Positions 1 through 53,547 of a DNA stretch of 64,000 bases are shown in pieces. The notes under the pieces were generated by a model that did not search any database, was not told the DNA's origin, and saw nothing but the letters and a program-made list of their open reading frames with translations. Each line of letters starts with the position of its first letter. Position 1 is the first letter of the stretch. The stretch covers positions 1,580,501 through 1,644,500 of the forward strand of contig OZ024878.1 in assembly GCA_964017185.1 (NCBI GenBank), in the 5' to 3' direction. The DNA is from Rugalucina vietnamica (lineage: Eukaryota > Mollusca > Bivalvia > Lucinida > Lucinidae). A program made the position numbers and the translations under genes.

Positions 1-951
1 AACATCATTGGGAGAATGACCAGTGCGCTTAAAATGCTGGTACAGAAAGGTATCATTATTTTTGGGCTTTCGGATTCTACGATAGTGCTCACCAAATCGT
101 TTTTGCAAAGTTCGACAAGTTTGTCCAACATATTGCATCCTACAATTGTTTGTATTTCAAGTAAGAACATATACAAGATCCACTGATTTTCAGTCTAAAT
201 CAGAATCATTAACCACTGAAAATGTCCTACCATTCACAGATGAAGTGATAGTAGTCTTAGAGCATAAATGATTGCAACAGTTGCCCTTCTTGGCATTGCA
301 CTTAGAAATACTAGGGTACATTCCAGGTCTCTTGAACTAAATGTTGTGAACCACTGCAGAAGCTGAGGGTGAGGTTAGGTACCTGTAAAACCGGTTTAAG
401 CCCGCCAGTAACTTTGTGTTACTGATCGTTCCAAGTCGATACTTCTGTAGTGGTTCTTTTTGTTTTATGTCTTGGTGTTTAAAATTTTTTGTGCTGTTGG
501 CGCCTTATGTATGTTTTCATATTTTTAGTTAAGTTAAGGTAACTGAGTGGCCACCTATTGGGAAAATAGCTGCTCATTCGGCTTACGATATGTTTCATGG
601 TATAAGTACCTGATTGTTAGTTTGGTTTTTTCCCACCTCGGTTTTTGGAGTGGGAATCTTTTTCTGATTGCGCCTTTTCCTGATCTTTGCCTACTTGTAC
701 CTTTTAATATATTTACGTAAAATTGGTGATTTGAGTGGAGATAACCTAATCTGAAGATTATTACGAAACATATTAGAATTAGAAGCTCCGTGTAGATTAA
801 CAGTAGATGCCGAAAATAAATTAAGAGGTGTCACCCTTACAGTAGGTAATAAATTTTGAAAATTGTTAGTTGAATGAGGAATCCGTACAGTAGACGCGGC
901 ATGCAACCTAAGGGGAGTTAATGTAATTCCTAATCTTTTTGTGATAGTCAT
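1..951 (-). pseudogene. PLE protein N-terminus (GIY-YIG part), interrupted copy
   Basis: The frame starts at an ATG (949-951) whose right-copy counterpart is at 9798-9800. It encodes a basic N-terminal region and then the cysteine motif and GIY-YIG endonuclease start. The same two in-frame UGA codons as in the right copy are present here (190-192 and 157-159). Reading is broken by the PLE-tail insertion at 338-705, so this copy cannot make the protein. The rest of the frame lies outside the window. Confidence 0.75.
338..705 (+). mobile_element. PLE 3' tail, 5'-truncated young insertion
   Basis: This stretch matches the 3' untranslated tail found after other PLE copies (compare 25022-25389), ending in the usual ACTTGTACCTTTT. 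It sits in the opposite orientation inside the left PLE copy. It is absent at the matching site of the right copy near 9567, where five bases (GGATT) are present instead. It therefore inserted after the tandem duplication, with a small deletion at the target. Confidence 0.85.
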
Positions 952-1323
952 AGTTGGGAGTATTGTGTTGATACTGCCAAAAGGAGCGCGACACTCATAC
1001 CGGTTATAGAATAAATAATGCACTTAATCGTAATGCAAAATCTTTCGAATGAAAGAAAAAGGTATAACCGAAACCCACACCTCAGGTCCATGTCTAATAC
1101 AAGTCCATGGATAGAAACGTAAGAATCGCTTATACAACGAGATACGAGTGACGGTCAACTAATGACCTTCAATACGGTATCGAAGAGTTGTGGTAGTTAG
1201 AGATAGGAAAATACAAACTGATTGCAAGCAATCCCTGAGGATTGGAAAAATAAGAGCATTAAATGGATGTACGGGGAGACTTTTTAGGGCCGCCACACGG
1301 CACAACCACAAGAGCTCTGATAT

Positions 1324-1598
1324 AAAAAGGTACAAGTAGGCAAAGATCAGGAAATGGCGCAATCAGAAAAAGATTCCCACTCCAAAAACCGAGGTGGGAA
1401 AAAACCAAACCAACAATCAGGTACTTATACCATGAAACATATCGTAAGCCGAATGAGCAGCTATTTTCCCAATAGGTGGCCACTCAGTTACCTTAACTTA
1501 ACTAAAAATATGAAAACATACATAAGGCGCCAACAGCACAAAAATTTTTCAAACACCAAGACATAAAACGAAAAGAACCACCACAGAAGTATCGACTT
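1324..1598 (-). repeat. PLE pseudo-LTR next to gag-protease end (left copy)
   Basis: This is a copy of the PLE 3'-terminal repeat, here called RepA. On the minus strand it starts abruptly at AAGTCGATACTTCTG, right after the retrotransposon coding sequence, and ends at TTGTACCTTTTT where the PLE leader begins. A partial tandem copy at the 5' end of a Penelope-like element is the known pseudo-LTR arrangement. Confidence 0.8.
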
Positions 1599-3252: not shown

Positions 3253-3255
3253 TTC

Positions 3256-3666
3256 TTACTTTTGTTTATGCATTCTTTCTTCCCGTTCTAAAGTTTCCAA
3301 TCTTATTCTTTCTTCCCTTTCGGCCTTTTCTGCCCTTATTCTTTCATCCCGTTCTAAAGTTTCCAACCTTATTCTTTCTTCATACTCAAATTTTAGTTTT
3401 TCCATCTCAATTTGTCTTTTGATTTCTAGTTCCCTCAACTGCAAGTCAGTCTGAGTGACTAGAATCTGAGAAGTAGCCGAGGAATCAAAAATTTCCTCGT
3501 CAACAAAAAACTGAATCAAAATGTTCTTAATTTCATGTTTTAACATGGAAGTCTTGATATTTGACAACCCATAATGATCAGCTATGTCTAAGAGGTCACT
3601 CTTTTTGGCCTTATCTAACAGCTCCTGAGAAGGCGCAGCAATAAAGTCACTTAGTTTGAATGACAT
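3256..3666 (-). CDS. Gag N-terminal segment, left copy
   Basis: This is a 136-codon frame starting with MSFKLSDFIAAPSQELLD, about 90 nt after the primer binding site. A globular N-terminal segment of about 75 residues is followed by a charged heptad-like coiled coil. It ends at a TAA (3256-3258), and the next Met codon in the same frame is only two codons further on (3250-3252), where the coiled coil simply continues. The two ORFs therefore look like one gag protein divided by a stop codon. The same stop is present in the right copy. Confidence 0.8.
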   Translation of the reverse strand: MSFKLSDFIAAPSQELLDKAKKSDLLDIADHYGLSNIKTSMLKHEIKNILIQFFVDEEIFDSSATSQILVTQTDLQLRELEIKRQIEMEKLKFEYEERIRLETLERDERIRAEKAEREERIRLETLEREERMHKQK

Positions 3667-3755
3667 GGTTGCTTTTTGCTGGCTTTAGCTATTTAAACAG
3701 CAAACAGTGAATATACTTTAGAATTTTAAATAAATTTGGTGCACAAGAAATTTCA

Positions 3756-3775
3756 ATCCCGGACTCGAGCCCCCA
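3756..3775 (-). other. Primer binding site (left copy)
   Basis: On the minus strand TGGGGGCTCGAGTCCGGGAT lies four bases downstream of the LTR end. It starts with TGG, as a site complementary to a tRNA CCA end must. It closely resembles the proline-tRNA primer site of some retroviruses, with two extra bases. The tRNA is an inference. Confidence 0.7.
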
Positions 3776-3779
3776 ATTC

Positions 3780-4617
3780 TGTTACGTGCCAGGCGTAACT
3801 AGAAGATTAAGAAAACCAACAAGTTGGTTAGCCAGCAACAAGCTTTGTTTACAATTTAACAAATCTATTTAGAAGTGATTTAACCAGTAATTACATGTGA
3901 AACAATCAAAAGCATATATACAATCAAACAAAAATGAATGTACAATACCTTTCAAGATGTTAATTCCCTTAAAGAATGTCTGAATGTCCCTCAGAATTTT
4001 TTAACACAAGTCTGTATCAGTTTCTGATCCCAAGAATTAAAGTTTGTTTCAAAATAGCACTATGTCCCAATCCAGAATCGAATATCACAAAGTAATCCAA
4101 GAATAAGTTTAAATTCCAGTAAGATAGATTTTGACTTCTTAATAGTAACAGTACCCAAAGACTGTCCTTATGAAAATTTGTAGCCCTTATATAGCACTGA
4201 GGAACATTCAGGATTCTTCCAGCAAATTCTATGATATCATATACTAAAAATAACAAGTTGTTTACCAAAATTTAATGTTTTGGAATATTCTAGAGAGGCC
4301 ATTATCCTTCCAGAAAATCCCAGAAAATCCCACAATATTCTTTTGACATAAAAAAAGATTTTTCTAGAAGATTCTACATCTTTGGTTCTTCCAGATTTTT
4401 CCGGACTTTTCCGTCAAAGAACAATTTGAAATTTCTAGAAAATTCTGAAGTAAACAACCTGTTTATGTCCAATATCTGGGACACTAAAAGTAAATAATTG
4501 CTATGGACAACAAGTAAACATCATATGTATAACATCATACCTTCCTGGGCATACTCCCTTGGGAAGTTTACCAGTACTGAATGCACATCTTTCAACAAGT
4601 AACTGTCATACATAACA
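3780..4617 (-). repeat. LTR shared by two tandem retrotransposon units
   Basis: On the minus strand it begins TGTTATGTATGACAG and ends GCACGTAACA, so it has TGTTA...TAACA ends. Its length is 838 bp against 828 bp in the right copy; the difference is a 10-bp local duplication near 4310-4330. It is preceded by a polypurine tract and the RT/RNase H end, and followed by a primer site and gag. Confidence 0.85.
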
Positions 4618-4628
4618 TTTCCCCTCTT
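4618..4628 (-). other. Polypurine tract
   Basis: AAGAGGGGAAA on the minus strand directly abuts the TG of the LTR. This is the expected position of the plus-strand primer of an LTR retrotransposon. Confidence 0.75.
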
Positions 4629-4769
4629 CAAAGAAAAGAAAGTTTTATAAAATAAAGCTTTCTTTTGCAATACTGGATAATTGTATACAATATGTTTAGC
4701 AAAATTTGTGCAAAACTAATCAAATACAACAGCACAAAGCTGGACATCAGCATTGTAGAGGCACTTAAG

Positions 4770-5966
4770 CTCTGCTTAGGGTGTCTGGAATGATATTATC
4801 TCTTCCTCGGATATGTCTGATGTCAAGATTGTGCTCTTGCAACATGAGACTCCACCTGAGTAAACGCTGGTTCTTGTTTTTCATTTTATGCATGACATTA
4901 CATACTTGGCCTTCTTACCAAGCAAGTTTGTCAGAGGCTCAGCTATAGCCGAGAAGTTGTTGCAGAATTTCCTGTAATATCCAGCCATACCCAGAAAGCG
5001 CATCAGTTGTCTTTTGCTAGTAGGTACAGGAAAATCTGAGATAGCCTCAACTTTAGCTTCTACAGGTTTTACCTGACCTTGACCTACAATGTGTCCAAGA
5101 AATGTCAAGTTTGCATGGCAAAATTCACTTTTTGCCAAGTTCACAGTTAGTTTAGCATCACTTAGCCGGTCAAAGAATGTTCTGATTGTCTGCAAGTGTT
5201 GTTGCCACTCCTCACTGAAGATAATAGCGTCGTCGATATAGGCTTTACAGCCATCCAGATTGGAAATCAAACTGTTGACCAGCCGCTGAAAAGTCGCAGG
5301 CGGGTTCTTCATTCCAAATGGCATGACTTTATACTGGTACAGTCCATCTGGTGTAACAAATGCCGAGATCTCCTTTGCTCTGTCCGTGAGGGGTATCTGC
5401 CAAAATCCCTTTAGCAGATCGAACTTTGTAACATACTTGGCATGTCCAATATTATCAATGCAGTCATCGATTCGTGGGATGGGAAAAGTGTCTGTTTTAG
5501 CGACAGAATTGACTTTTCGATAGTCTGTGCACATTCTAAATGTCCCGTCTGGCTTTGGTACAAGAATACAAGGAGAACTCCATTCACTTTGGCTGGGTTC
5601 AATGAAATCATTGTCCAGCAAATATTGAACTTCTTCCCTGAGATATTGCTGTTTTACAGGGTTCATTCTGTAAGGATGTTGCTTTACAGGTTTTGAACCT
5701 TCAATAATGTCAACATCATGATAGATTTTGTCAGTTCTGGATGGAATGTCTGGAAATAAGTGCTCATATTCGAGAACTAACTGTTTCAGTTCAAGTCTTT
5801 TGTCTGAATCAAGGTGAGACAGTTTCTGATCAAGATTCTGTAGTATGTCAGAATTCTGGAGTTTCGATGACGAGGGATCAGATTTCTCCAAGTTGAAGTC
5901 CTCAGAGTCCATTTGATTTTGTTCATGAGGGACAGAATTAACTATATTTACTGATGAAATAACAGA
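4770..5966 (-). pseudogene. Retrotransposon reverse transcriptase with RNase H deletion
   Basis: The frame from about 5966 holds an acidic spacer and a complete gypsy-type RT. Landmarks include SSPCILVPKPDGTFRMCTDY, the FDLLKGFWQIPL block, VMPFGMKNPPATFQRLV and the catalytic YIDD box (CKAYIDDAIIFS). It reaches a stop at 4881 just after the connection domain. The segment that follows, in another frame to about 4770, reads as the extreme end of RNase H (RHIRGRDNIIPDTLSRA then stop). Roughly 120 residues of RNase H have therefore been deleted with a frame change. The first residues of the open frame are read from the PLE tail and are not original. No integrase lies between this stop and the polypurine tract. 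Confidence 0.85.
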
Positions 5967-6245
5967 AAAAAGGTACAAGTAGGCAAAGATCAGGAAAAGG
6001 CGCAATCAGAAAAAGATTCCCACTCCAAAAACCGAGGTGGGAAAAAACCAAACCAACAATCAGGTACCCATACCATGAAACAATCGTAAGCCGAATGGGC
6101 AGCTATTTTCCCAATAGGTGGCCACTCAGTTACCTTAACTTAACTAAAAATATGAAAACATACATAAGGTGCCAACAGCACAAAAAAATTTTAAACACCA
6201 AGACATAAAACAAAAAGAACCACCACAGAAGTATCGACTTGGAAC

Positions 6246-6587
6246 GATCAGTAACACAAAGTTACTGGCGGGCTTAAACCGGTTTTACATGGCCATAACC
6301 TCACCCTCAGCTTCCGCAGTGGTTCAAAACATTTAGTTAGTTATTCGGTCCTCGTGGTGAATCTCTAACTAGTCAATGAATCATCAAGAACAAACAAATA
6401 AATCATGATAAACATCCTGATGAATCAAAAACCAGGACTCACAGACTGAGTAAGCTGCCCGACGATGGAGATCCCTGGGCGCCGAATAACCTACTAACTC
6501 CGGAGCAAAAGAAAAACACCAGTTGGACCCCGGTGGGCCAAGCAACAGACAAGAAGCTCCGGCCCCAACCAACTAAAATGAATAGCT
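6246..6587 (-). other. PLE 3' untranslated region
   Basis: This is the sequence between the RT stop and the terminal repeat RepA. It is conserved in all the PLE copies here (compare 24769-25130 and 47795-48160) and begins with the SECIS-like hairpin. No canonical hammerhead ribozyme core (CUGAUGA with GAAA at the right spacing) was seen in it. Confidence 0.7.
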
Positions 6588-6613
6588 TTATGTCGGGGCC
6601 ATCATAGAGTCTG
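6546..6613 (-). promoter_or_regulatory. Candidate SECIS element at the PLE stop codon
   Basis: On the minus strand the order is CAGAC, an ATGA core, the stem strand GGCCCCGAC, a loop with AAA on its 5' side, the matching strand GTTGGGGCC, then GGAG, and finally GTCTG pairing with CAGAC. ATGA opposite GA would allow the tandem G-A pairs of a SECIS core, and AAA in the apical loop is also expected. Stem length (10-11 pairs) is slightly short. It overlaps the end of the reading frame. The fold was done by eye. Confidence 0.5.
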
Positions 6614-7073
6614 ACGCCCGACCCACCGGCGTGCAATTAAAGAAGGCAGCATAGTTATCAACCATGATTGGGTTAAAAACTAAGCATGCAGACTGTCGCA
6701 TAACATTCAAGTTATAACCTATACGTTTGTAACGTGTTATGATTTTTCTGAACTGAAAAGAAAAATCATTAATTCCTTTAAGTTTCTTAAATTTGTAAAC
6801 CAAGTCACCATAAAATTCAGGTTCCGAAAGGCCCTCACTTAAAAGCGTCTTTAACCCAACATTATATTTGGAAATCAATTCATAGTGTCTACGATAAAAT
6901 TTAGAAAATGTTTTTCGAAGTTTATGATACCGATAGCCCTGTTGGAGAAGTTTTGCCGTTAAACATTTATTTCGAGCGTTGAAGTCTGTAACATGATTGC
7001 AGACTCTAGCAAACCTAATAAGTTGCGAAATGTATACACCATAAGAAGCACGACGAGGAACGTCACCATCCAA
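6588..7073 (-). pseudogene. PLE reverse transcriptase, C-terminal part
   Basis: This frame holds the thumb and C-terminal extension of the PLE RT, ending in the conserved [15 protein letters not shown] just before the stop (6588-6590). It is out of phase with the RT core because a run of T has one base more here (near 7070) than in the intact copy at 24280. The C-terminus is shared by the copies at 23536, 47141 and 51461. Confidence 0.85.
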
Positions 7074-7975
7074 AAAAAGGAAAATTTACTATATCAAAAT
7101 CAAAGTCATCGCGCTTGTCATAAATTTTAGAAGAAACAAATCCATTTGCAACAGAAAGATGTAGATCTAAAAAGGGGGCTTCAGTATCTGAGATATTGGC
7201 TTTGTTCAACTGAAGTTCAGGTGGATAAATTTGATTGACCATACCTTCAAAATAAGGGTTGCCAATGTTCAAAAGGTCATCGAGGTACCTAGATGTGGAA
7301 TTAAAAGCCTCGATAACATCAGCTTGATTATCATGGTTAAGAGAATCCATGAAATCTCTTTCGTAGCAGTATAAAAATAAATCAGCTACGAGAGGTGTGC
7401 AATTTGTACCCATCGGAATTCCAACAATTTGTCTGTATAACTTTGTCCCAAATCTAATATAAATATTATCAAGGAGATAGGATAAGGCGTCGCATACATT
7501 CTGACATGACAAAAGTGTATACCGACTTTGGTCAGAGGAAGTGAAAAAAGCCTTTCTGTCATTACATTCCAAATAAAGTGAACCATAGTTTTTTAATGCC
7601 CTTTTGAAGGTCCACTCTATCAAATCCAGAAGTTTTTCTTTAATTAGATTATGTGGTAATGTTGTATACAGAGTAGAAAAATCATATGTAGACAAGCTTG
7701 TCGCACGGAACCCTCTACACTTCAATTTACTGAGCACCTCACCAGAATTTTTAATTGACCAAAACCAATTTTTATTTGAAGTTTCATACACTGTCTCACA
7801 GTATCTTATAACATGAGATTTGATAGCAGTAAGACAGGAAGTTAATAATTTAGAAAGTTCAGTGGTAGTACAAGAGCTAGAATTTGCAATAAATCTAGCT
7901 TTGTATGGTCTTTTGTGAAGCTTAGGTAACCAATACATCGTAGGAAGTTTGTCTTGGCCTTCATTGACACAGAAA
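7063..7975 (-). pseudogene. PLE reverse transcriptase core
   Basis: RT fingers and palm of a Penelope-type polymerase. Visible blocks are YWLPKLHKRPYKARFIANSS, STYDFSTLYTTLPHNLI, GIPMGTNC and the catalytic [10 protein letters not shown] (YLDD). The frame is separated from the upstream endonuclease/linker frame by a frameshift near 7970, where two extra bases look most likely, and from the C-terminal frame by a homopolymer slip near 7070. The polymerase motifs themselves are intact. RTs of this clade are related to telomerase. Confidence 0.85.
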
Positions 7976-9800
7976 ACTTAACAGGTAAATCGTTTAAGTG
8001 GGCATTAACTACAGACACCTCATCAGTATCTGTCTCCAGATAAGCCCTGGTACCATCAAGCTCCTGTTTTAAGGTGTTAACGTAGTGAAGCCTACAAACG
8101 ACAACAACATTGTTTGCGGCTTTATCTGCCGGAACCAAGACATACTTTCTATGAAATTCTTGGATACCCTGCTTCAAATGCCTAAATGACGATTTGGGTT
8201 TAGGAGGTAAAAGATTAGTATTTTGTGAATAAAACTTAATACGTTTATCCACAATAGTGAAGATACTTCTTTTCCATTCTTTAAGAGCATTATCCTCAAC
8301 ACCCTCTCGTTTACACCATCGATTACCGAAATCATTTAATGCAGATGAAATCTCCTCTCTACATTTGTCAAAATTAATGTAGGAAGGGAATCTATATTTC
8401 GGACCTTTAGAAACAATTTTGCGAATTCTAGAATCCGAAATTATTTTTAAATTTCCAGTAACAATATGTCCAGCGGGTTGATAAACATATTTTGAATCTT
8501 TACAATCTCAAGACTTAGGAGTATTAGCATGGATATCAAGATCAGAAACAAGTTTATTGAAATTAAAAATTGTATTTCTGATTGGTTTGTTATATTTGTA
8601 ACAAATAATAGGAGGTTCTGAATTTTGGAAGTAGGTAGGTATAGACTGTATCACTGATTTATCCTGGAATATGCTTGGTAAATCAATAAAGTCAATTCCT
8701 TTATTGATGAAAGGAATTTTAATTAAACTTCTAATGTGATTAGATTCGGAATCGATAAATGGACGAAGAGCATGCTGAGTATAACATCTTGTTAACATTG
8801 CAGCGTCATACATTTGATGATTTCTATCGTAAAATCTATTAGCCTCTGTGTCCAAGGAACGTAATGCAGCAATAGGTAGAGAACTAAGATACGACAGCAT
8901 TGGATGTCGACTGTGAATCCTTAGTTTAACAGCTAAATCATTAAGAGAAATGTTCAATTTCAATGCAGCACACCGTTTACGTTTGTCATTACCCTTTTCC
9001 CGTATACCATGAGATCTAGATTTACGTTTACGAGAGTCCGAAAGTGTAAGTACATCAAAATCGGGCATTTTGGAAATATTGCCTTCATGGTAAATGTTGT
9101 CGTTAAATCCCAGTGGAAAGGGTGTTTGCAGTAATTTTATCCATTTAAGTTCAGTTTCAAATCGTTTAATGTTTTTTGAATCTAACTGAAGAATTTTCAT
9201 CATATGAGATTTTCTCCACTGGTTGAACTTTAACATCATTGGGAGAATGACCAGTGCGCTTAAAATGCTGGTACAGAAAGGTATCATTATTTTGGGCTTT
9301 CGGATTCTACGATAGTGCTCACCAAATCGTTTTTGCAAAGTTCGACAAGTTTGTCCAACATATTGCATCCTACAATTGTTTGTATTTCAAGTAAGAACAT
9401 ATACAAGATCCACTGATTTTCAGTCTAAATCAGAATCATTAACCACTGAAAATGTCCTACCATTCACAGATGAAGTGATAGTAGTCTTAGAGCATAAATG
9501 ATTGCAACAGTTGCCCTTCTTGGCATTGCACTTAGAAATACTAGGGTACATTCCAGGTCTCTTGAACGGATTAATATATTTACGTAAAATTGGTGATTTG
9601 AGTGGAGATAACCTAATCTGAAGATTATTACGAAACATATTAGAATTAGAAGCTCCGTGTAGATTAACAGTAAGAGGTGTCACCCTTACAGTAGGTAATA
9701 AATTTTGAAAATTGTTAGTTGAATGAGGAATCCGTACAGTAGACGCGGCATGCAACCTAAGGGGAGTTAATGTAATTCCTAATCTTTTTGTGATAGTCAT
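7842..9800 (-). CDS. PLE GIY-YIG endonuclease and linker, with three in-frame UGA codons
   Basis: The likely start is the ATG at 9798-9800; a TAA lies directly before the GTG further upstream. From there the frame runs to the RT frameshift near 7970 and ends at 7842, interrupted only by UGA at 9420-9422 (codon 127), 9387-9389 (codon 138) and 8508-8510 (codon 431). There is no TAA or TAG. UGA 1 and 2 lie in the cysteine motif before the YVGQT of GIY-YIG, at the places where PLE endonucleases carry conserved Cys. UGA 3 makes U-D-C of the CxC motif that links endonuclease to RT. A catalytic-type block RTLQKRFGEHYRRI follows YVGQT. Selenocysteine recoding is the favoured reading, since multi-selenocysteine Naiads are known from clams. 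Plain nonsense mutation is the alternative. Confidence 0.75.
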
Positions 9801-10173
9801 AGTTGGGAGTATTGTGTTGATACTGCCAAAAGGAGCGCGACACTCATACCGGTTATAGAATAAATAATGCACTTAATCGTAATGCAAAATCTTTCGAATG
9901 AAAGAAAAAGGTATAACCGAAACCCACACCTCAGGTCCATGTCTAATACAAGTCCATGGATAGAAACGTAAGAATCGCTTATACAACGAGATACGAGTGA
10001 CGGTCAACTAATGACCTTCAATACGGTATCGAAGAGTTGTGGTAGTTAGAGATAGGAAAATACAAACTGATTGCAAGCAATCCCTGAGGATTGGAAAAAT
10101 AAGAGCATTAAATGGATGTACGGGGAGACTTTTTAGGGCCGCCACACGGCACAACCACAAGAGCTCTGATATA

Positions 10174-10447
10174 AAAAGGTACAAGTAGGCAAAGATCAGG
10201 AAATGGCGCAATCAGAAAAAGATTCCCACTCCAAAAACCGAGGTGGGAAAAAACCAAACCAACAATCAGGTACTTATACCATGAAACATATCGTAAGCCG
10301 AATGAGCAGCTATTTTCCCAATAGGTGGTCACTCAGTTACCTTAACTTAACTAAAAATATGAAAACATACATAAGGCGCCAACAGCACAAAATTTTTTCA
10401 AACACCAAGACATAAAACGAAAAGAACCACCACAGAAGTATCGACTT
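10174..10447 (-). repeat. PLE pseudo-LTR (right copy)
   Basis: Nearly identical to 1324-1598 and in the same position. It starts at AAGTCGATACTTC right after the protease-coding sequence and ends TTGTACCTTTTT at the PLE leader. It is a 5'-truncated RepA copy in tandem with the full element. Confidence 0.8.
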
Positions 10448-12101
10448 TATTAAAGGACTGACCTATCAAAGTGTCAGTTAAATTTATGTCCTGCATCCCA
10501 TCATATAATTTGGCTTTCTTTGCCATTGCCCTAGTGACAGCACAAGAAGGGTAAAGGTCAGGAATTTCCTGCTCAATGGGATCAGGCGGTTGATCAACAC
10601 ATGGTGTGCTGGTCAAAAGTGGGTTTACCATAACCTTATCTCCTGCCAAATCATTGCCTAACAGCAAATGAATACCTTTAAAGGGTAAGGAAGGTCTAAT
10701 ACCTACAGCCACGGGACCTTTAACTAAGTCTGAGGACAAATAGATATTATGGAGCGGTACATTAACAAATCCACACTCTACGCCCTGGATAAGGACACTT
10801 GTCCCAGAAGAAGACTTCTCGGAAAATTGCAAGGTATCTGCCAAGATAAGGGATTGAGAAGCTCCGGTATCTCGTAAGATTTTGATAGGGGTAGACTGGG
10901 CAGAGTCACTGTTAAGTGACACAAAACCATCTGATAAGAATGGTTAATAAATCTCCATAATAGAATCCTCAGAGACTGACTCTTTACAAGTTCTGGTCAG
11001 TATAGGGTTTTCTTCCTGGATACAAGACTGTGGTTTAGCCTTTAAGGAGGTGAGGCCTGTCGGTTTAGCACTATCTAGATTTTCTCTTTCTTTCTTTCGT
11101 TTCAGTGCCAAACATTCAGAAATAATGTGGCCAGTTTTCTTACAATAATTACAAATTGGCTGGGATAAGGGATTTTGTCCTTTGTTTTCACTAGAAAATT
11201 TGGGTTTTGGACTGGAATTGTCAGTTGGATTACTGGGATTGGCTTTGGGACCGGACTGAGGGGAATATGGTTTTGACTGAGGGGTAATTTGCTTTGATTG
11301 AGGGTTATATGGTTTCCTAGGATATGGCTTGTTGACAAATGAAGCCTTATGAGTCAAAGCATAGTCATCAGCTAAACGTGCTGCTGTTTCCAAGTTTTCA
11401 ACTTCTCTTTCGTTCAAGAAAGCCTTAACATCAGAATTTATGCACCGTTTGAATTCTTCAACAAGCATGAGCTGCCTTAGCTTTGCATGATCAGAACCTA
11501 CTTTCTTTGAAGAACACCATCTATCAAATAGTTGCTCTTTTGTTCTAGCAAACTCAACATGAGTCTGGTCATGTTCTTTTCTACAGTCTCTAAATTTCTG
11601 CCTGTATGCCTCAGGGACCAACTCATAAGCTTTAAGAATAAATTCCTTTACTGTATCATAATCTGAGCTTTGCTCAAGAGAAAGCTGAATGTTAATTTCT
11701 CGAGCTTTACCAATTACAACACTTTGCAAAAGCAAGGTCCAGTGCTCTCTTGGCCATTTCAAGTTTTCTGCCACCTTCTCAAAATGTAAGAAATATTTGT
11801 CAACCTCTTTTTCTTGAAATGGAGGAACGAGACGAATGTGTTTTGTGACATCAAATACTGTACTAGTAGCCAAAGGCAAAGATTTTGATTTTGATTTGTC
11901 ATTAAGTTCAATTTCCTTCATTCTTAACTGAAATTGCCTTTCTCTTTCTTTTTCTTCAATTTCAAATTTAAATTTTTCTTTTTCAATTTCAAGCCTTTCT
12001 TCTCTTTCTAATTTTTCTTTTTCTAACTCAATTTTTTCTCGTTCTAATTCTCTTTGTTTTTCCTTCTCTCGTTCTTCCATTTCTAACTTTTGTTTATCCA
12101 T
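10398..12101 (-). pseudogene. Gag-protease, right copy, with nonsense mutation
   Basis: Same protein as 1549-3252 and almost identical in sequence. A C-to-A change on the plus strand near 10946 turns a GAA codon into TAA, so the frame stops after 385 codons, between the CCHC knuckle and the protease. The protease continues open from 10922 down to the junction with the PLE pseudo-LTR at 10447. The left copy is intact at this site. Confidence 0.85.
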
Positions 12102-12104
12102 TTC

Positions 12105-12515
12105 TTACTTTTGTTTATGCATTCTTTCTTCCCGTTCTAAAGTTTCCAATCTTATTCTTTCTTCCCTTTCGGCCTTTTCTGCCCTTATTCTTTCATCCCG
12201 TTCTAAAGTTTCCAACCTTATTCTTTCTTCATACTCAAATTTTAGTTTTTCCATCTCAATTTGTCTTTTGATTTCTAGTTCCCTCAACTGCAAGTCAGTC
12301 TGAGTGACTAGAATCTGAGAAGTAGCCGAGGAATCAAAAATTTCCTCGTCAACAAAAAACTGAATCAAAATGTTCTTAATTTCATGTTTTAACATGGAAG
12401 TCTTGATATTTGACAACCCATAATGATCAGCTATGTCTAAGAGGTCACTCTTTTTGGCCTTATCTAACAGCTCCTGAGAAGGCGCTGCAATAAAGTCACT
12501 TAGTTTGAATGACAT
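12105..12515 (-). CDS. Gag N-terminal segment, right copy
   Basis: It encodes the same 136 residues as 3256-3666, including the terminal TAA that separates it, in phase, from the downstream gag frame. Confidence 0.8.
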   Translation of the reverse strand: MSFKLSDFIAAPSQELLDKAKKSDLLDIADHYGLSNIKTSMLKHEIKNILIQFFVDEEIFDSSATSQILVTQTDLQLRELEIKRQIEMEKLKFEYEERIRLETLERDERIRAEKAEREERIRLETLEREERMHKQK

Positions 12516-16795: not shown

Positions 16796-17048
16796 AGTGG
16801 TTCTTTTTGTTTTATGTCTTGGCGTTTAAAATTTTTGTGCTGTTGGCTCCTTGTGTATGTTTTCATATTTTAGGTAACTGAGTGGCCACCTACTTGGAAA
16901 ATAGCTGCTCATTCGGCTTGCGGTGTGTTTTCATGGTGTAAGTACCTGATTGTTAATTTAGTTTTTCCCATCTCGGTTTTTGGCGTTTTTGGAGTGGGAA
17001 TCGTTTTCTGATTGCGCCTTTTCCTGATCTTTGCCTACTTGTACCTTT
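16796..17048 (+). repeat. PLE tail RepA, truncated copy
   Basis: Matches the PLE 3'-terminal repeat from GTGGTTCTTTTTGTTTTATG to ACTTGTACCTTT. Diverged, with no RT upstream. Confidence 0.85.
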
Positions 17049-23535: not shown

Positions 23536-24768
23536 GTGTTTCATGTTATAAGATACTGTGAGACAGTGTATGAAACTTCAAATAAAAATTGGTTTTGGTC
23601 AATAAAAAAATCTGGTGAGGTGCTCAGTAAATTGAAGTGTAGAGGGTTCCGTGCGACAAGCTTGTCCACATATGATTTTTCTACTCTGTATACAACATTA
23701 CCACATAATCTAATTAAAGAAAAACTTCTGGATTTGATAGAGTGGACCTTCAAAAGGGCATTAAAAAACTATGGTTCACTTTATTTGGCATGTAATGACA
23801 GAAAGGCTTTTTTCACTTCCTCTGACCAAAGTCGGTATACCCTTTGGTCATGTCAGAATGTGTGCGACGCCTTATCCTATCTCCTTGATAATATTTATAT
23901 TAGATTTGGGACCAAGTTATACAGACAAATTGTTGGAATTCCGATGGGTACAAATTGCGCACCTCTCGTAGCTGATTTATTTTTATACTGCTACGAAAGA
24001 GATTTCATGGATTCTCTTAACCATGATAATCAAGCTGATGTTATCGAGGCTTTTAATTCCACATCTAGGTACCTCGATGACCTTTTGAACATTGACAACC
24101 CTTATTTTGAAGGTATGGTCAATCAAATTTATCCACCTGAACTTCAGTTGAACAAAGCTAATATCTCAGATACCGAAGCCCCCTTTTTAGATCTACATCT
24201 TTCTGTTGCAAATGGATTTGTTTCTTCTAAAATTTATGATAAGCGCGATGACTTTGATTTTGATATAGTAAATTTTGCTTTTTTGGATGGTGACGTTCCT
24301 CGTCGTGCTTCTTATGGTGTATACATTTCGCAACTTATTAGGTTTGCTAGAGTCTGCAATCATGTTACAGACTTCAACGCTCGAAATAAATGTTTAACGG
24401 CAAAACTTCTCCAACAGGGCTATCGGTATCATAAACTTCGAAAAACCTTTTCTAAATTTTATCGTAGACACTATGAATTGATTTCCAAATATAATGTTGG
24501 GTTAAAGACACTTTTAAGTGAGGGCCTTTCGGAACCTGAATTTTATGGTGACTTGGTTTACAAATTAAAGAAACTTAAAGGAATAAATGATTTTTCTCTT
24601 CAGTTCGGAAAAATCATATCACGTTACAGACGTATAGGTTATAACTTGAATGTTATGCGACAGTCTGCATGCTTAGTTTTTAACCCAATCATGGTTGATA
24701 ACTATGCTGCCTTCTTTAATTGCACGCCGGTGGGTCGGGCGTCAGACTCTATGATGGCCCCGACTTAA
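23536..24768 (+). CDS. PLE reverse transcriptase, 5'-truncated copy with open frame
   Basis: This is a 410-codon frame covering the RT from just before the NKNWFWSI block to the natural C-terminus ASDSMMAPT. It includes STYDFSTLYTTLP, GIPMGTNCAPLVADLF, the catalytic [10 protein letters not shown] and the C-terminal extension. It has no stops or frameshifts, unlike the copy at 6588-7975, and served as reference for locating breaks there. Endonuclease and linker are missing (5' truncation), so the UGA region is absent and the copy is not autonomous. The first Met is created by flanking sequence. Confidence 0.85.
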   Translation: MFHVIRYCETVYETSNKNWFWSIKKSGEVLSKLKCRGFRATSLSTYDFSTLYTTLPHNLIKEKLLDLIEWTFKRALKNYGSLYLACNDRKAFFTSSDQSRYTLWSCQNVCDALSYLLDNIYIRFGTKLYRQIVGIPMGTNCAPLVADLFLYCYERDFMDSLNHDNQADVIEAFNSTSRYLDDLLNIDNPYFEGMVNQIYPPELQLNKANISDTEAPFLDLHLSVANGFVSSKIYDKRDDFDFDIVNFAFLDGDVPRRASYGVYISQLIRFARVCNHVTDFNARNKCLTAKLLQQGYRYHKLRKTFSKFYRRHYELISKYNVGLKTLLSEGLSEPEFYGDLVYKLKKLKGINDFSLQFGKIISRYRRIGYNLNVMRQSACLVFNPIMVDNYAAFFNCTPVGRASDSMMAPT

Positions 24769-25389
24769 AGCTATTCATTTTAGTTAGTTGGGGCCGGAGC
24801 TTCTTGTCTGTTGCTTGGCCCACCGGGGTCCAACTGGTGTTTTTCTTTTGCTCCGGAGTTAGTAGGTTATTCGGCGCCCAGGGATCTCCATCGTCGGGCA
24901 GCTTACTCAATCTGTGAGTCCTGGTTTTTGATTCATCAGGATGTTTATCATGATTTATTTGTTTGTTCTTGATGATTCATTGACTAGTTAGAGATTCACC
25001 ACGAGGACCGAAGAACTAACTAAATGTTGTGAACCACTGCAGAAGCTGAGGGTGAGGTTAGGTACCTGTAAAACCGGTTTAAGCCCGCCAGTAACTTTGT
25101 GTTACTGATCGTTCCAAGTCGATACTTCTGTAGTGGTTTTTTTTGTTTTATGTCTTGGTGTTTAAAATTTTTTGTGCTGTTGGCGCCTTATGTATGTTTT
25201 CATATTTTTAGTTAAGTTAAGGTAACTGAGTGGCCACCTATTGGGAAAATAGCTGCTCATTCGGCTTACGATATGTTTCATGGTATAAGTACCTGATTGT
25301 TAGTTTGGTTTTTTCCCACCTCGGTTTTTGGAGTGGGAATCTTTTTCTGATTGCGCCTTTTCCTGATCTTTGCCTACTTGTACCTTTTT
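23542..25389 (+). mobile_element. Penelope-like element, 5'-truncated copy
   Basis: RT fragment followed by the full 3' UTR and RepA ending in TTGTACCTTTTT. It is the best-preserved RT and 3' end in the window. Confidence 0.9.
24743..24810 (+). promoter_or_regulatory. Candidate SECIS element at the PLE stop codon
   Basis: Stem strand 24756-24765 (GGCCCCGACT) pairs with 24786-24795 (AGTTGGGGCC). ATGA is at 24751-24754 and GA at 24797-24798. AAA at 24767-24769 is in the loop, and CAGAC (24743-24747) pairs with GTCTG (24806-24810). The stop codon TAA (24766-24768) starts the loop. Confidence 0.5.
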
Positions 25390-46300: not shown

Positions 46301-49300
46301 CCTACAGTTCAGATCAGGTTGGTAACCAAATTCAGATCCAGAATAAATAGATAAATAGATATCCTAAGATGCAGAACAATGGATTCTAGTATTACAGAAA
46401 GATACTGTTTGGGTCCATTTTCGGTTTAAGCACTAGAGGTGGGTGTGTTTTCGGTTAGAAAATTAAACAGAGCAACTCAGAGGTTTCCAGCTGGTCCATT
46501 ACAAGTGAAAAGAACTTTAAGATTCATAAAACATTTGAGCGGTTTCCAGTGAAAGAATCACAAATCATTTGCCAGGTTTTCAGTTTCTACAATAGATTAT
46601 TGAAAAATCATTACAAGTTACAGACGTATAGGATATAACTAATTGGCATAATTGTTATGCGGCAGTCTGCATGCTTAGTTTTTAACCCAATCATGGTTGA
46701 TAACTATGCTGCCTTCTTTAATTGCACGCCGGTGAGTCGGGCGTCAGACTCTATGATGGCCCCGACATAAAGCTATTCATTTTAGTTGGTTGGGGCCGGA
46801 GCTTCTTGTCTGTTGCTTGGTCCACCGGGGTTCAACTGGTGTTTTTCTTTTGCTCCGGAGTTAGTAAGTTATATGGCGCGCAGGGATCTCCATCGTCGGG
46901 CAGCTTACTTATTCTGCGAGTCCTTGTTTTTGATTCATCATGGTGGTTATCATGATTTATTTGTTTGTCCATGATGATTCATTGACAAGTTAGAGATTCA
47001 CCACGAGGACCGAACTACTAACTAAATGTTGTGAACCACTGCAGAAGCTGAGGGTAAGGTTAAGGCACTTTAAAATTAATTTAAGCCCGCCAGTAATTTT
47101 ATATTACTGATCGTTCCAATGCGATACTTCTTTTGAAGGCATGGTCAATCAAATTTATCCACCTGAACTTCAGTTGAACAAAGCTAATATCTCAGATACC
47201 GAAGCCCCCTTTTTAGATCTACATCTTTCTGTTGCAAATGGATTTGTTTCTTCTAAAATTTATGATAAGCGCGATGACTTTGATTTTGATATAGTAAAAT
47301 TTCCTTTTTTGGATGGTGACGTTCCTCGTCGTGCTTCTTATGGTGTATACATTTCGCAACTTATTAGGTTTGCTAGAGTCTGCAATCATGTTACAGACTT
47401 CAACGCTCGAAATAAATGTTTAACGGCAAAACTTCTCCAACAGGGCTATCGGTATCATAAACTTCGAAAAACCTTTTCTAAATTTTATCGTAGACACTAT
47501 GAATTGATTTCCAAATATAGTGTTGGGTTAAAGACACTTTTAAGTGAGGGCCTTTCGGAACCTGAATTTTATGGTGACTTGGTTTACAAATTAAAGAAAC
47601 TTAAAGGAATAAATGATTTTTCTTTTCAGTTCGGAAAAATCATAACACGTTACAGACGTATAGGTTATAACTTGAATGTTATGCGACAGTCTGCATGCTT
47701 AGTTTTTAACCCAATCATGGTTGATAACTATGCTGCCTTCTTTAATTGCACGCCGGTGGGTCGGGCGTCAGACTCTATGATGGCCCCGACTTAAAGCTAT
47801 TCATTTTAGTTGGTTGGGGCCGGAGCTTCTTGTCTGTTGCTTGGCCCACCGGGGTCCAACTGGTGTTTTTCTTTTGCTCCGGAGTTAGTAGGTTATTCGG
47901 CGCCCAGGGATCTCCATCGTCGGGCAGCTTACTCAATCTGTGAGTCCTGGTTTTTGATTCATCAGGATGTTTATCATGATTTATTTGTTTGTTCTTGATG
48001 ATTCATTGACTAGTTAGAGATTCACCACGAGGACCGAAGAACTAACTAAATGTTGTGAACCACTGCAGAAGCTAAGGGTGAGGTTAGGTACCTGTAAAAC
48101 CGGTTTAAGCCCGCCAGTAACTTTGTGTTACTGATCGTTCCAAGTCGATACTTCTGTGGTGGTTCTTTTTGTTTTATGTCTTGGTGTTTAAATTTTTTGT
48201 GCTGTTGGCGCCTTATGTATGTTTTCATATTTTTAGTTAAGTTAAGGTAACTGAGTGGCCACCTATTGGGAAAATAGCTGCTCATTCGGCTTACGATATG
48301 TTTCATGGTATAAGTACTTGATTGTTAGTTTGGTTTTTTCCCACCTCGGTTTTTGGAGTGGGAATCTTTTTCTGATTGCGCCTTTTCCTGATCTTTGCCT
48401 ACTTGTACCTTTTTCTGTGGTGGTTCTTATTGTTTTATGTCTTGGTGTTAAAATTTTTGTGCTGTTTGCGCGTTATGTATGTTTTCATATTTTTAGTTAA
48501 GATTTGGTAACTGAGTGGCCACCTATTAGGAAAATAGCTGCTCATTAGGCTTACGATGTGTTTTCATGGTATACGGACCTGATTGTTAATTTAGTTTTTT
48601 CTCACTTCGGATTTTGGAGTGGGATTCTCTTTCTGATTGCGCCTTTTCCTGATCGTTACCTACTTGTACCTTTTAATATGTTTACAGCTGCAGAATAAAC
48701 AGAACGTTTGAAGTATTTTCAGATATAGAATAAAAGAAAAAAATTATTTTAAGCGTTTTTAGGGTCACTGAAGCCAAAACCGCGGTATGGCCCATCCCCT
48801 TTCTCATTAATATGTTTACGAGGGTGGGTCAGGAAGTTCTGTCATAGGTGTTATATTACGATAAATAGACATGATATGTTGCTGAATTATACATTTCTCC
48901 TTTATAACGATACCAAACCCCTGCCCAAAAGAAATAAATAGTTTAAATTATCCGTCTTGAAAGACAGGTGGGGTAAAACCACTGGCATGTTTTCTTGAAA
49001 TTGTGAACCTTGTATTGTGTCTTTCATGTGTTGTATAGTTATAACTACTGATCATATTCTCGTAAAATTTTAAGTGATAAATTCTGTTTTATTTAGAAAA
49101 GCAATCCGGCAGAAAGGAATGTCACAAGTGCGCTACTGACTGTATAATGAAGCGATAAAGATGACGTCATTGGAATATGTACCCCTGAAAATGCCAGGAC
49201 AGGCCGATTTCAACATTTCATTGTGCTATAAAACAATTAAATTAAGTTGTAAAAGTTTGAGTTTTGCAGGACATACTCACTCATATTCGAAGAATATATA

Positions 49301-52300
49301 GCACTTATGGCTTTTTTTCAAAATCATTTACTGTATATTTTTGCATTGTTCTCTTTAAATCATGCCAGTGTCAGGGAGTCACCGCTTTAAAAGTGATTTA
49401 TTATATGTTATTCATGAAGAGACACAAACAATTTTTATCACAGGTAATAGCTAAAGAAATGGTCTTTCAGATGTTGTTATTTTAAAATAGTTTGCAATGA
49501 CAGATACCGAGTAATATATGGAGTGACAGAACTTTTTGACCGATCCTCGTACTGCTATTAAAGGATCTGTTTTAATCTTTTATTAATATGTATAAGAATA
49601 TAATAGATGTTATGATGAAACTGATGTTGTCATATTCAATCACTCAAACTGTATGTAATTGTGAATAGTTGGCGGCTGAACTGTATATTTTGCCCTTTTA
49701 AGGGCAATTCCTCTGTGCATAGATCCGGGCTACTTGGTGCGGTGAAGATGGTGAAGCTGCCCAGTGACAAAAACTTCAGTTTGAGAGGAGAAACATTACA
49801 GGCTGCGGTAGACAAAGATAAAGCTGCAGGACTGATTCCTTTCTTTGTAAGTGAATTTATGGATATTTCAAGAGTAAAAGTAAGTGTCGTCTAGGTACGT
49901 GTGCAATCAGAACCAAGGTCTCACAAATGTGAGGAAATACCCAAACTTTCTCATTAATATGTTCTCATCCCTTTTCTCATTAATATGTTCACTGCTCTTA
50001 AAGGATCTCAGTTTTATCTTTATTTCCTATTACTGCAGCTGGTGTTGTGCCGTGTGGCGGCCGTAGGAGGTCTCCCCGTACATCATCCATAATGCAGATT
50101 ATATTTTCCTTATGGTCCTTTGAGATCAGCGCGGGTATTCTGAGAAATCAAAAAAATTATTGTCGGTTAAGATTCATTTTCTAACCCACGTTTTTAGATA
50201 GTTGGTCCCATTTGAATTTTAACAGTCCTTGTATCGACTACCCTGTCGAAAGATGCAAAATTACAGTAATTCACTTTGGTTCCATGTTGCCAAATATATA
50301 GGGTCACTGAAGAGGCTTAAGTAGCCGAAACCGCGGTATGGTCCATCCCCTTTCTCATTAATATGTTCACTGCTCTTAAAGGTTCTCAGTTTTATAATTA
50401 ACAATACAAAGATAATGTAGGCCTTTCGATCGAGAGCAAATCATTTTCCAAACCATTGGAATTAAGCAACAAAAATCTAACTTAATATAGATCAAGACAC
50501 AAAATGATAAAATGACTCCAAAAGTGCTCTGATGACTTCTGATTTACCAATACCTGCTCCACCTGTTAAGAAAGAAATACCGGTTCATTTTAACATTAAA
50601 TTCAATGCAATGCATGATTGAAAAAATCTCTTTGTCTCAAATTCAGACTACTGAGTAGGATTAAGCTTTCGTTATCCAGTAGTAAATACCAGTTGTTTCG
50701 ACATGTGGCACCGACCATTATGACTGCATTTCCATTCGAAAATCATACAAGTGTACACTCTACCACTATTTGGATTAAACACAATTCTTTTTTATTCTGC
50801 CTCTATTTTCTTGTTCTCCATATTTGCACTTTCAACCATCATCATTAAACAGTCATGACGATTTACATTATTTTCCATTTAGCTCTGTGCATCTTTGGGA
50901 ACAACGAGTTCATGTGCTTTTGATAATTTGACTGAACTGGGACCCATCTGTAAGTACTAGTATATATTTGATCAACCATAACTTGACGAACGACTATCTA
51001 TTTTGGTTTGCTTAATGGGGCATCCGACAAAGGGACTGGACAGATTAAAGATAGAAGCATCATTTAAATTTAATACATCACAGCATTTGGTAATGTACAA
51101 AACTAAACAACTTCACATTATAAAATAGTTACCGTTAAAGGAAGACCTTGGTTATTATTTAGCATAAAAAGGGAGACGTAATTTTCATTTTCAAGTGAAA
51201 TATTCTAATCTCGCAAACAGCGAAGCAACGGAATCAAACAAATATTACAAATAAGATAAAATTAGGCAATGAGCAGGAAACGGTGTAATCAGAAAGAAAT
51301 TCCCACTCCAAAAACCGAGATGGGAATAAAACTAAATTGACATTCAGGTACTTATACTAAGAAAGCATTTCGTAAGCCGTCTGAGCAGCTATTTCCAAAT
51401 AGGCGGACACTCAGTTATTCGAAGCGTTTAAATGCGACTTCTAGGTACCTCGATGACCTTTTGAACATTGACAACCCTTATTTTGAAGGTATGGTCAATC
51501 AAATTTATCCACCTGAACTACAGTTGACCAAAGCCAATATCTCAGATACCGAAGCCCCCTTTTTAGACTTACATCTTTCTGTTGCAAATGGATTTGTTTC
51601 TTCTAAAATTTACGATAAGCGCGATGACTTTGATTTTGATATGGTAAATTTTCCGTTTTTGGATGGTGACGTTCCTCGTCGTGCTTCTTATGGTGTATAC
51701 ATTTCTCAACTTATTAGGTTCGCTAGAGTATGCAATCATGTTATGGACTTCAACGATCGAAATAAATGTTGAACGGCCAAACTTCTCCAACAGGGTTATC
51801 GGTATCATAAACTTCGAAAAAACATTTTCTAAATTTTATCGTAGACACTATGAATTGATTTCCAAATATAATGTTGGGTTAAAGACGCTTTTAGATGAGG
51901 GCCTTTCGGAACCAGAACTTTATGGTGACTTGGTTTACAAATTTAAGAAACTTAAAGGAATGATTTTTCTTTTCAGTGCAGAAAAATCATTACACGTTAC
52001 AGACGTGTATAACTTGAATGTTATGCGACAGTCTACATGCTTAGTTTTTAACCCAATCATGGTTGATAACTATGCTGCCTTCTTTCATTGCATGCCGGTG
52101 GGTCGGGCGTCAGACTCTATGATGGCGCCGACTTAAAGCTTTTCATTTTAGTTGGTAGGGGCCGGATCTTCTTGTCTGTTGCTTGGCCCACCAGGGTCCA
52201 ACTGGCGTTTTTCTTTTGCTCCGGAGTTAGTAAGTTATATGGCGCCCAGGGATCTCACTCGTCGGGCAGGTTACTGAATCTGTTGAGTCCTCGTTTTTGA

Positions 52301-53547
52301 TTCATCAGGATGTTTATCATGATTTATCTGTTTGTTCTTGATGATTCATTGACTAGTTAGAGATTCACCACGAGGACCGAAGAACTAACTAAATGTTATG
52401 AACCACTGCAGAAGCTGAGGGTGAGGTTAGGTACCTGTAAAATCGATTTAAGCCCCCCCCCCCCAGTTATTTTATAACTGACCGTTCCAAGGCGGTACTG
52501 CTGCTGTGGTTCACATTTATCCGAGTTATTTCATTTATGAGATTAATGTTGCATGATTTTGTGACCACCCGAATATCAATTGGCTGTTCACTTAGCCCTC
52601 TGCATTTTACTTGTTCTGTCCAACCTAGCACTGTGACCACCTTACCTTCAATAGCTGATCACCCTGCTTTCCGTTATTCGTGCTTCATGTTGGTACCTAT
52701 GTATATAATTTTCCTAACATGCTTTCCTTATTTCTCGTTTATATTTGTGTAGCACTGAACCACTACAGAAGCTGAGGGCGAGGTTAGGTAGATCTACCTG
52801 TAAAATCGATTTAAGCCCGCCAGTAATTTTATATTACTGATCGTTCCAAGGCGATACTTCTATGGCGGTTCTTTCGTTTTATGTCTTGGTGTTTAATTTT
52901 TTTGTGCTGTTGGCGCCTTATGTGTGTTTTCATAATTTTAGTTAAGTTTAGGCAACTGAGTGGCCACCTATTGGAAAAATAACTGCCCATTCGGCTTACG
53001 ATATGTTTTCATGGTATAAGTACCTGATTGTTAATTTAGTTTTTTTCCCAATGGTTTTTGGAGTGGGGATCTTTTTCTGATATCTTTGCCTACATGTACC
53101 TTTTTATTTAAATATCGTGTAATGGTGTGCTTAACTATCAACGATTTGTATATTTTACAGGTGAAGTGAATGACATGTGGCTACACATTGACGCTGCATA
53201 TGCAGGGAGTGCATTTGTTTGTCCTGAGTACAGAAAATATATGGAGGGGATACAGGTATGATTTTGTTAGGACTTGAATTAGATATTCTGTAAAGTACTA
53301 ACAAAGCACAAAACCTTCATGATTGACATAGTTATATCCAATTATTAATCTCAGAGTATTAAATAGTGAGAACAATATTGATAATCCAAATTGTCGTACA
53401 TTACGAAAACATGCCCATGCAATATACAGAGATTTTTTAAAGCTGTAAAAAATGAAAATTTTCAGTGGAAATTTTTGGATATTTTTCTTATTTTTGCTCA
53501 AAACATAGATTGTGGGTACACGTTAGAACCGCCTCGGCGGTGTATTG

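Follow-up and report, generated by a model that had tools for sequence, protein, structure and literature searches.

The element and its surroundings

The window (the whole 64-kb stretch of DNA that was analysed) carries, on its minus strand, a dead member of a Naiad-type Penelope-like element (PLE) family. Its features, and those of the family's other copies nearby, are collected in Table 1. Aligned to an intact copy from the same genome (L005), the window copy is 98.8% identical over 3,975 columns (aligned stretch 10292-6341); four indels, at about 9.29, 9.18, 7.97 and 7.08 kb, break its frame, and 18 bp have been lost in frame near 9.67 kb. Because that loss shifts the numbering by six, codons 127, 138 and 431 of the window copy are codons 133, 144 and 437 of intact copies, and it is the latter numbering that is used below.

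A sequence-only reading of the same DNA had described a frame that starts at the ATG at 9800 and is interrupted, as far as the frameshift near 7.97 kb, by UGA alone. The stops in that interval are indeed all TGA, but two indels had been overlooked: those near 9.29 and 9.18 kb are of one base each and compensate each other, and it is only by chance that the named frame stays open between them, the true reading lying in another frame. The placement of the UGA codons relative to the protein's motifs needs a similar adjustment: the third is, as proposed, the first residue of the CxC linker, but the second falls after the GIY-like stretch and before the YIG-like one (VYVLT-U-NTNNC-RMQYVG), not ahead of the endonuclease core.

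Table 1. Positions, within the window, of the PLE copy, its parts and further copies of the family
Feature	Position	Strand	Remarks
Naiad-type PLE copy, coding region	6588..9800	-	decayed; from alignment to intact copy L005
UGA codon 133 of intact copies (127 in window copy)	9420..9422	-	from frame reading, copies and relatives
UGA codon 144 of intact copies (138 in window copy)	9387..9389	-	first Cys of the C-C-H-H columns
CxC linker motif	8502..8510	-	reads U-D-C; UGA at 8508-8510 is codon 437 (intact) or 431 (window)
GIY-YIG endonuclease region	9130..9405	-	approximate; both compensating indels lie within
Reverse transcriptase region	6940..8507	-	approximate; frame breaks near 7.97 and 7.08 kb
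SECIS element (RF00031)	6546..6613	-	37.4 bits; over the last codons and the stop
UAA stop	6588..6590	-	inside the SECIS apical loop (UAA of UAAA)
Direct repeat upstream of the element	10173..10447	-	pseudo-LTR-like; repeat families D2, D3
Direct repeat downstream of the element	5967..6240	-	pseudo-LTR-like; repeat families D2, D3
Second copy, broken and partial	1..1443	-	pieces 1-337 and 704-1443
5'-truncated copy	23541..25015	+	98.5% identical; SECIS at 24743-24810
5'-truncated copy	46602..47014	+	92.5% identical; SECIS at 46745-46812
5'-truncated copy	47127..48041	+	98.4% identical; SECIS at 47769-47836
5'-truncated copy	51414..52384	+	93.7% identical; SECIS-like stretch, no match at cut-off

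Naiad-type PLEs are recognized by an N-terminal GIY-YIG endonuclease, a CxC linker and, within the endonuclease, a C-C-H-H motif. When about 5.8 billion predicted proteins were searched, 86 relatives of the window family emerged, in which the order of domains is GIY-YIG endonuclease, CxC linker, reverse transcriptase (RT), that is, with GIY-YIG N-terminal to the RT, as in Naiads. Profile searches with the family's own members yield little: an intact copy (L003) has no Pfam match at 0.01 and the window ORF scores 18.3 bits against GIY-YIG, under the cut-off of 22.6. A relative at 38% identity (P0024) matches PF01541 (GIY-YIG) above cut-off and RVT_1 under its own. In the AlphaFold model of the same relative (pLDDT 79.7, pTM 0.63) the RT looks telomerase-like: telomerases take all of the top 15 places in Foldseek (lowest E 1.5e-10), although the TM-score on the query is only 0.31. 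The linker is UxC in the window family, and its second position (column 439) is Cys in 48/56 relatives that cover it. Four columns of the endonuclease probably represent the published Naiad C-C-H-H motif: with U counted as C, column 144 of alignment A1 is C in 13/13 rows and column 149 in 13/14, column 185 is H in 13/14, and column 191 is H in all 10 rows that have a letter there. Tandem insertion of the pseudo-LTR type is also in evidence, in the direct repeats that flank the window copy and in an array of five copies standing head-to-tail at a spacing of exactly 4,226 bp (G000 C15:40644093-40664227). No hammerhead ribozyme family reaches its Rfam gathering score in the window, the absence of a match being weak evidence; weak Rfam matches (twister-P1, snoRNAs) lie far under their own cut-offs and are set aside as chance.

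The surroundings are crowded with repeats. The PLE seems to sit within an LTR-type retrotransposon (window 1549-6005 and 10398-12515, minus strand); RVT_1 is found in an ORF at 4881-6005, a gag-like ORF at 1549-3252 gives a SCAN-domain match of 43.9 bits, and the region is duplicated at a spacing of about 8.8 to 9.2 kb with 96-100% identity. Ten pieces of the element's own repeat, each of about 110-125 bp and corresponding to positions 9-132 of the query stretch, are scattered through the window (at 16929, 19244, 25270, 33523, 48295, 48562, 51250, 53000, 58188 and 61549); some adjoin truncated copies and some stand alone, and they may represent a small unit of non-autonomous type or what remains of solo pseudo-LTRs.

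Three UGA codons, in the genome and among relatives

The element is present at more than 1,000 places in its genome (a 1.09-Gb assembly in 47 contigs). From these, two overlapping sets of copies were read: 19 selected by a DNA search (40 of 2,308 candidates scored, 41 matches listed) and 30 selected by a protein search (43 of 33,445 candidates scored). The test set beforehand, alignment of the three codons across copies, comes out, in this sample, on the side of conservation. In all 19 of the DNA-selected copies outside the window, codons 133, 144 and 437 are TGA; 16 of these consist of a single 1,077-codon frame that runs from its ATG to a TAA without internal TAA or TAG and with exactly three TGA, at those codons, and the other three (L011-L013) have frames that are broken further on, yet show the same three TGA. 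All 43 candidates scored in the protein search have three TGA (one with an extra TAG), and TGA occupies all three sites in each of the 30 loci that were re-read: 26 by their start motif (24 distinct, every one with TGT at codon 575) and four with a variant start motif, in which no other stop precedes the final TAA. A separate family at 85% identity in the same genome was considered and discarded, its query (P0009) having brought back the family already in hand (67 of 24,907 candidates scored, each with at least one TGA, two also with TAA or TAG).

The sequence-only reading had argued that decay was unlikely to turn three conserved Cys codons into UGA. The pattern of stops in the frame also goes beyond chance. 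A base-shuffled frame of 1,077 codons contains on average 54.4 TAA/TAG and 19.0 TGA, with minima of 32 and 6 in 2,000 shuffles; the actual counts are 0 and 3. The two other frames of the same strand of an intact copy hold 28 and 99 TAA/TAG, together with 14 and 51 TGA, respectively.

What stands at these sites elsewhere is, in the main, cysteine. Among those of the 86 relatives that cover each column, Cys is found in 17/18 at column 133 (with one Pro), in 19/19 at column 144 and in 51/56 at column 437 (with four Trp and one Leu), and the proposal that UGA replaces conserved cysteines is borne out at all three. No relatives were confirmed in viral contigs or in contigs of bacterial and archaeal genomes. 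Two relatives (P0231, 83% identical; P0238, 77%) carry the label Candidatus Thiodiazotropha, the name of a lucinid clam symbiont; the sequences probably stem from clam host DNA included in the symbiont's assemblies, and they point to a bivalve as the host of the window family.

SECIS, tRNA-Sec and selection beyond each UGA

The SECIS search that the sequence-only reading had called for gave a match above the gathering score at the element's 3' end (Rfam SECIS_1; gathering score 35, E 2.2e-4 in a 20-kb search). Matches at or above cut-off were obtained in 10 of the 12 loci searched; in the remaining two, L003 has a variant stem base and falls under the cut-off, and L011 lacks an intact 3' end. 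The predicted fold of the stretch has a z of -4.02, and none of 200 shuffles is equally stable. Its position is peculiar: the hairpin starts within the last codons (encoding S-D-S-M-M-A-P-T), and the UAA of its apical UAAA is the stop codon itself. The overlap of SECIS and stop is probably old, since relatives at 72-73% identity (P0003, P0013, P0017, P0018), 79% (P0086) and 85-86% (P0005-P0007) still have the C-terminal peptide that the SECIS encodes. The element is presumably transcribed through the SECIS. Within the window, SECIS matches above cut-off are found in 4/5 copies that retain the element's 3' end, and their presence in three of the four 5'-truncated copies among the five further copies and pieces means that the element scatters SECIS sequences across the genome.

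Two genomic loci exceed the cut-off of 47 for tRNA-Sec (RF01852), at 79 and 71.2 bits. Since each of 14 known genomes used as controls gives some match (five of them over cut-off), only these two over-cut-off matches are counted. Another 22, at 40-46 bits and in several cases clustered on C2 and C3, are possibly other tRNAs or pseudogenes. Three hallmarks of eukaryotic selenoprotein genes are present here: UGA codons in frame that line up with Cys between conserved flanks, a SECIS downstream, and tRNA-Sec in the host.

Purifying selection persists beyond every UGA. Rough omega (non-synonymous over synonymous variants relative to mutational expectation) was calculated for two sets of copies and four segments (codons 1-132, 134-436, 438-635 and 636-1077). 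The 16 intact DNA-selected copies, which are a small, less biased set (13 distinct; 7 to 50 variants per segment), give 0.15, 0.48, 0.34 and 0.25, respectively. The 26 protein-selected copies (15 to 63 variants per segment) were picked by score, a choice that pushes omega down and enriches for intact frames; they give 0.43, 0.19, 0.16 and 0.15.

Could these UGA codons nevertheless be nonsense mutations of dead copies, amplified with help in trans from an intact, Cys-coding master? The window copy is itself dead, and identity among the closest copies is about 98%, which means that a single event could have been copied repeatedly. Against this, the frame is free of any other stop over 1,077 codons in 16 of 19 copies, omega is below 0.5 after each UGA, and the UGA codons are kept from copy to copy; together these strongly disfavour decay as their source. 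The same stop position recurs, moreover, in relatives as distant as 54% identity, and decay does not account for a SECIS at the element's 3' end. Nor was a Cys-coding master found among the copies read. A 34-base pattern at codon 437 occurs at 1,142 places with two or fewer mismatches; the first 100 of these to be listed have TGA at codon 437 in 99 and TGT in one, each differing from the pattern by exactly 1 mismatch. The places thus seem to be sorted by their number of mismatches; they are no free sample, and TAA or CGA copies could not appear among them. A Cys codon at 437 with exact 26-base flanks occurs at just four places, and the only one of these that was read (L051) is truncated, internally deleted and about 96% identical to L003. 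The sequence-only reading had named a Cys-coding master, with UGA confined to a tandem pair, as the finding that would speak against recoding; with Cys-437 at four places versus 1,142 for the pattern, nothing of the kind was seen. We consider decay very improbable.

Because the UGA codons are kept, because relatives have Cys in their place, and because a SECIS, a tRNA-Sec and selection past each UGA accompany them, UGA is very probably read as selenocysteine (Sec). We are highly confident in reading the window copy as a dead member of a Naiad-type PLE family, one with a high copy number and recent activity, whose predicted 1,077-codon protein is a selenoprotein with Sec at 133, 144 and 437; the original suggestion of a retroelement protein with multiple selenocysteines is well supported by the evidence from copies, relatives, SECIS and tRNA-Sec. 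The element would then make a single protein comprising an N-terminal GIY-YIG endonuclease, a CxC linker and a telomerase-like RT. Its SECIS would recruit SBP2, eEFSec and tRNA-Sec, as established Sec biology leads one to expect, and that one SECIS would serve all three UGA codons to yield a full-length enzyme, which would cut the target DNA and then reverse-transcribe the element. (For PLEs, the mechanism usually proposed is target-primed reverse transcription.) In that enzyme Sec would stand in for Cys once in a set of four Cys columns (97, 102, 105, 133), once among the C-C-H-H columns (144, 149, 185, 191), and at the first Cys of the CxC linker (437, 439). All three groups of columns resemble metal-binding groups and may bind metal.

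Possible Cys/UGA switching among relatives, and known systems

Wider searches with parts of the intact protein give a glimpse of how these sites vary. (A technical note: stops in the relatives are seen as protein ends, and UGA in them is accordingly deduced from where the predicted proteins end.) Codons 1-436 as query found 308 relatives. Among the 120 listed, 69 (54-98% identical) stop directly ahead of codon 437 and 10 directly ahead of codon 575, the latter with Cys (9) or Ser (1) at 437; 48 start at 151. The listed proteins that cover both 133 and 144 have Trp at both (6/6), and the 18 that cover 437 have Trp in 8, Cys in 9 and Ser in 1. Codons 438-1077 as query found 1,554 relatives; 120 were listed, and among the 102 of these that were new and aligned, 14 start at 577 and 55 have 1077 as their exact last position; those that cover residue 575 carry Cys there in 29 cases, Trp in 3 and Arg in 1. 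In the 86-relative set, residue 575 is Cys in 63/70 and Trp in 7/70.

Trees add an indication of how often the sites have changed state. For residues 151-436 (105 rows, 19 with no letter or Ser at 437 having been omitted), the 68 rows that stop or have Trp at 437 and the 9 with Cys at 437 and a stop at 575 form one clade of 77 rows (SH-aLRT 95), which adjoins P0016; the state at 437 cannot be explained by fewer than 6 changes, of which well-supported branches force 4. For residues 604-1000 (105 rows, 56 ambiguous ones omitted), the state at 575 requires 3. Both trees are quick, several long branches meet in them and their labels come from protein ends, so that these counts are indicative. Protein ends, protein starts and Trp letters in the relatives together suggest a fourth Sec site at 575 and repeated switching between Cys and UGA at 437.

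The Trp letters bear on another explanation: plain readthrough of UGA, with insertion of some other amino acid (Trp or Arg, for example) and no involvement of selenium. The Trp counts given above (6/6 at 133 and 144, 8/18 at 437, among the 120 listed of 308) are what it would have to appeal to. Trp in some relatives occupies the very positions at which other relatives stop, however, and is more simply explained as UGA read as Trp by a gene finder's table, or as UGA mutated to UGG; intact distant relatives have Cys, not Trp, at these sites, and a SECIS is present. Readthrough of this kind seems to us as improbable as decay. That UGA is a true stop, with each segment between UGA codons made as its own protein by internal initiation, is the least credible proposal of all: codons 151-436 do form a clean ORF in many relatives (those that start at 151), but the first UGA would split the endonuclease from the upstream Cys set, the second would fall inside the endonuclease, UGA-free relatives have one fused protein, and neither Cys at the three sites nor the SECIS would be explained.

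To return to the selenoprotein reading, known systems offer three points of comparison. 1) Naiads of clams and of spiders have reportedly become selenoproteins independently, with several Sec. The window family resembles these in being a permuted PLE with an N-terminal GIY-YIG, a CxC linker and several UGA codons read as Sec, and in its high copy number, and it may perhaps belong to the same clam lineage. 2) Canonical PLEs (Penelope/Poseidon, Neptune, Nematis) have one ORF for GIY-YIG and a telomerase-like RT, and form tandem copies with repeated ends. The window family shares this plan; unlike them, it has its endonuclease at the N-terminus and three Cys coded by UGA. The window shows no hammerhead at the Rfam cut-off. 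3) Selenoprotein P has several UGA codons in its mRNA, decoded through a 3' SECIS. The likeness lies in several UGA codons within one ORF and a SECIS at its 3' side; the difference is that Selenoprotein P is encoded by the host and keeps its SECIS in the 3' UTR, whereas here a retrotransposon has one SECIS match, overlapping the stop codon.

Selenoprotein Naiads, then, are already known, and the window family is a well-supported further case. The overlap of SECIS and stop codon and the switching at 437 and 575 may be the parts that are new relative to Craig et al. 2021. A speculative reading, which we regard as unlikely, connects them: by lying over the end of the ORF, the SECIS would put a brake on UGA recoding that is coupled to termination (on completing the full-length protein, a ribosome would open up the SECIS on which Sec insertion depends), in a family whose sites at 133, 144, 437 and 575 would have switched repeatedly between Cys and Sec. 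If so, the brake would limit UGA recoding and hence the output of RT, and the family would provide a natural series for the role of Sec in the endonuclease and the RT.

Why is Sec kept where Cys would do? The suggested repeated exchange of the two at the same residues bears on that question. Sec may make for a better enzyme, may set how much of it is made by way of the selenium supply, or may persist because reversion to Cys is rare. Here is a mobile element, at more than 1,000 places in a chromosome-scale genome, whose replication enzyme appears to be selenium-dependent, and the main parts of the system (UGA sites, SECIS and host tRNA-Sec) are all visible in one genome. There is also a warning for annotation: gene finders seem to end such proteins at UGA or to write Trp there, and annotation based on signs of decay would label intact copies dead.
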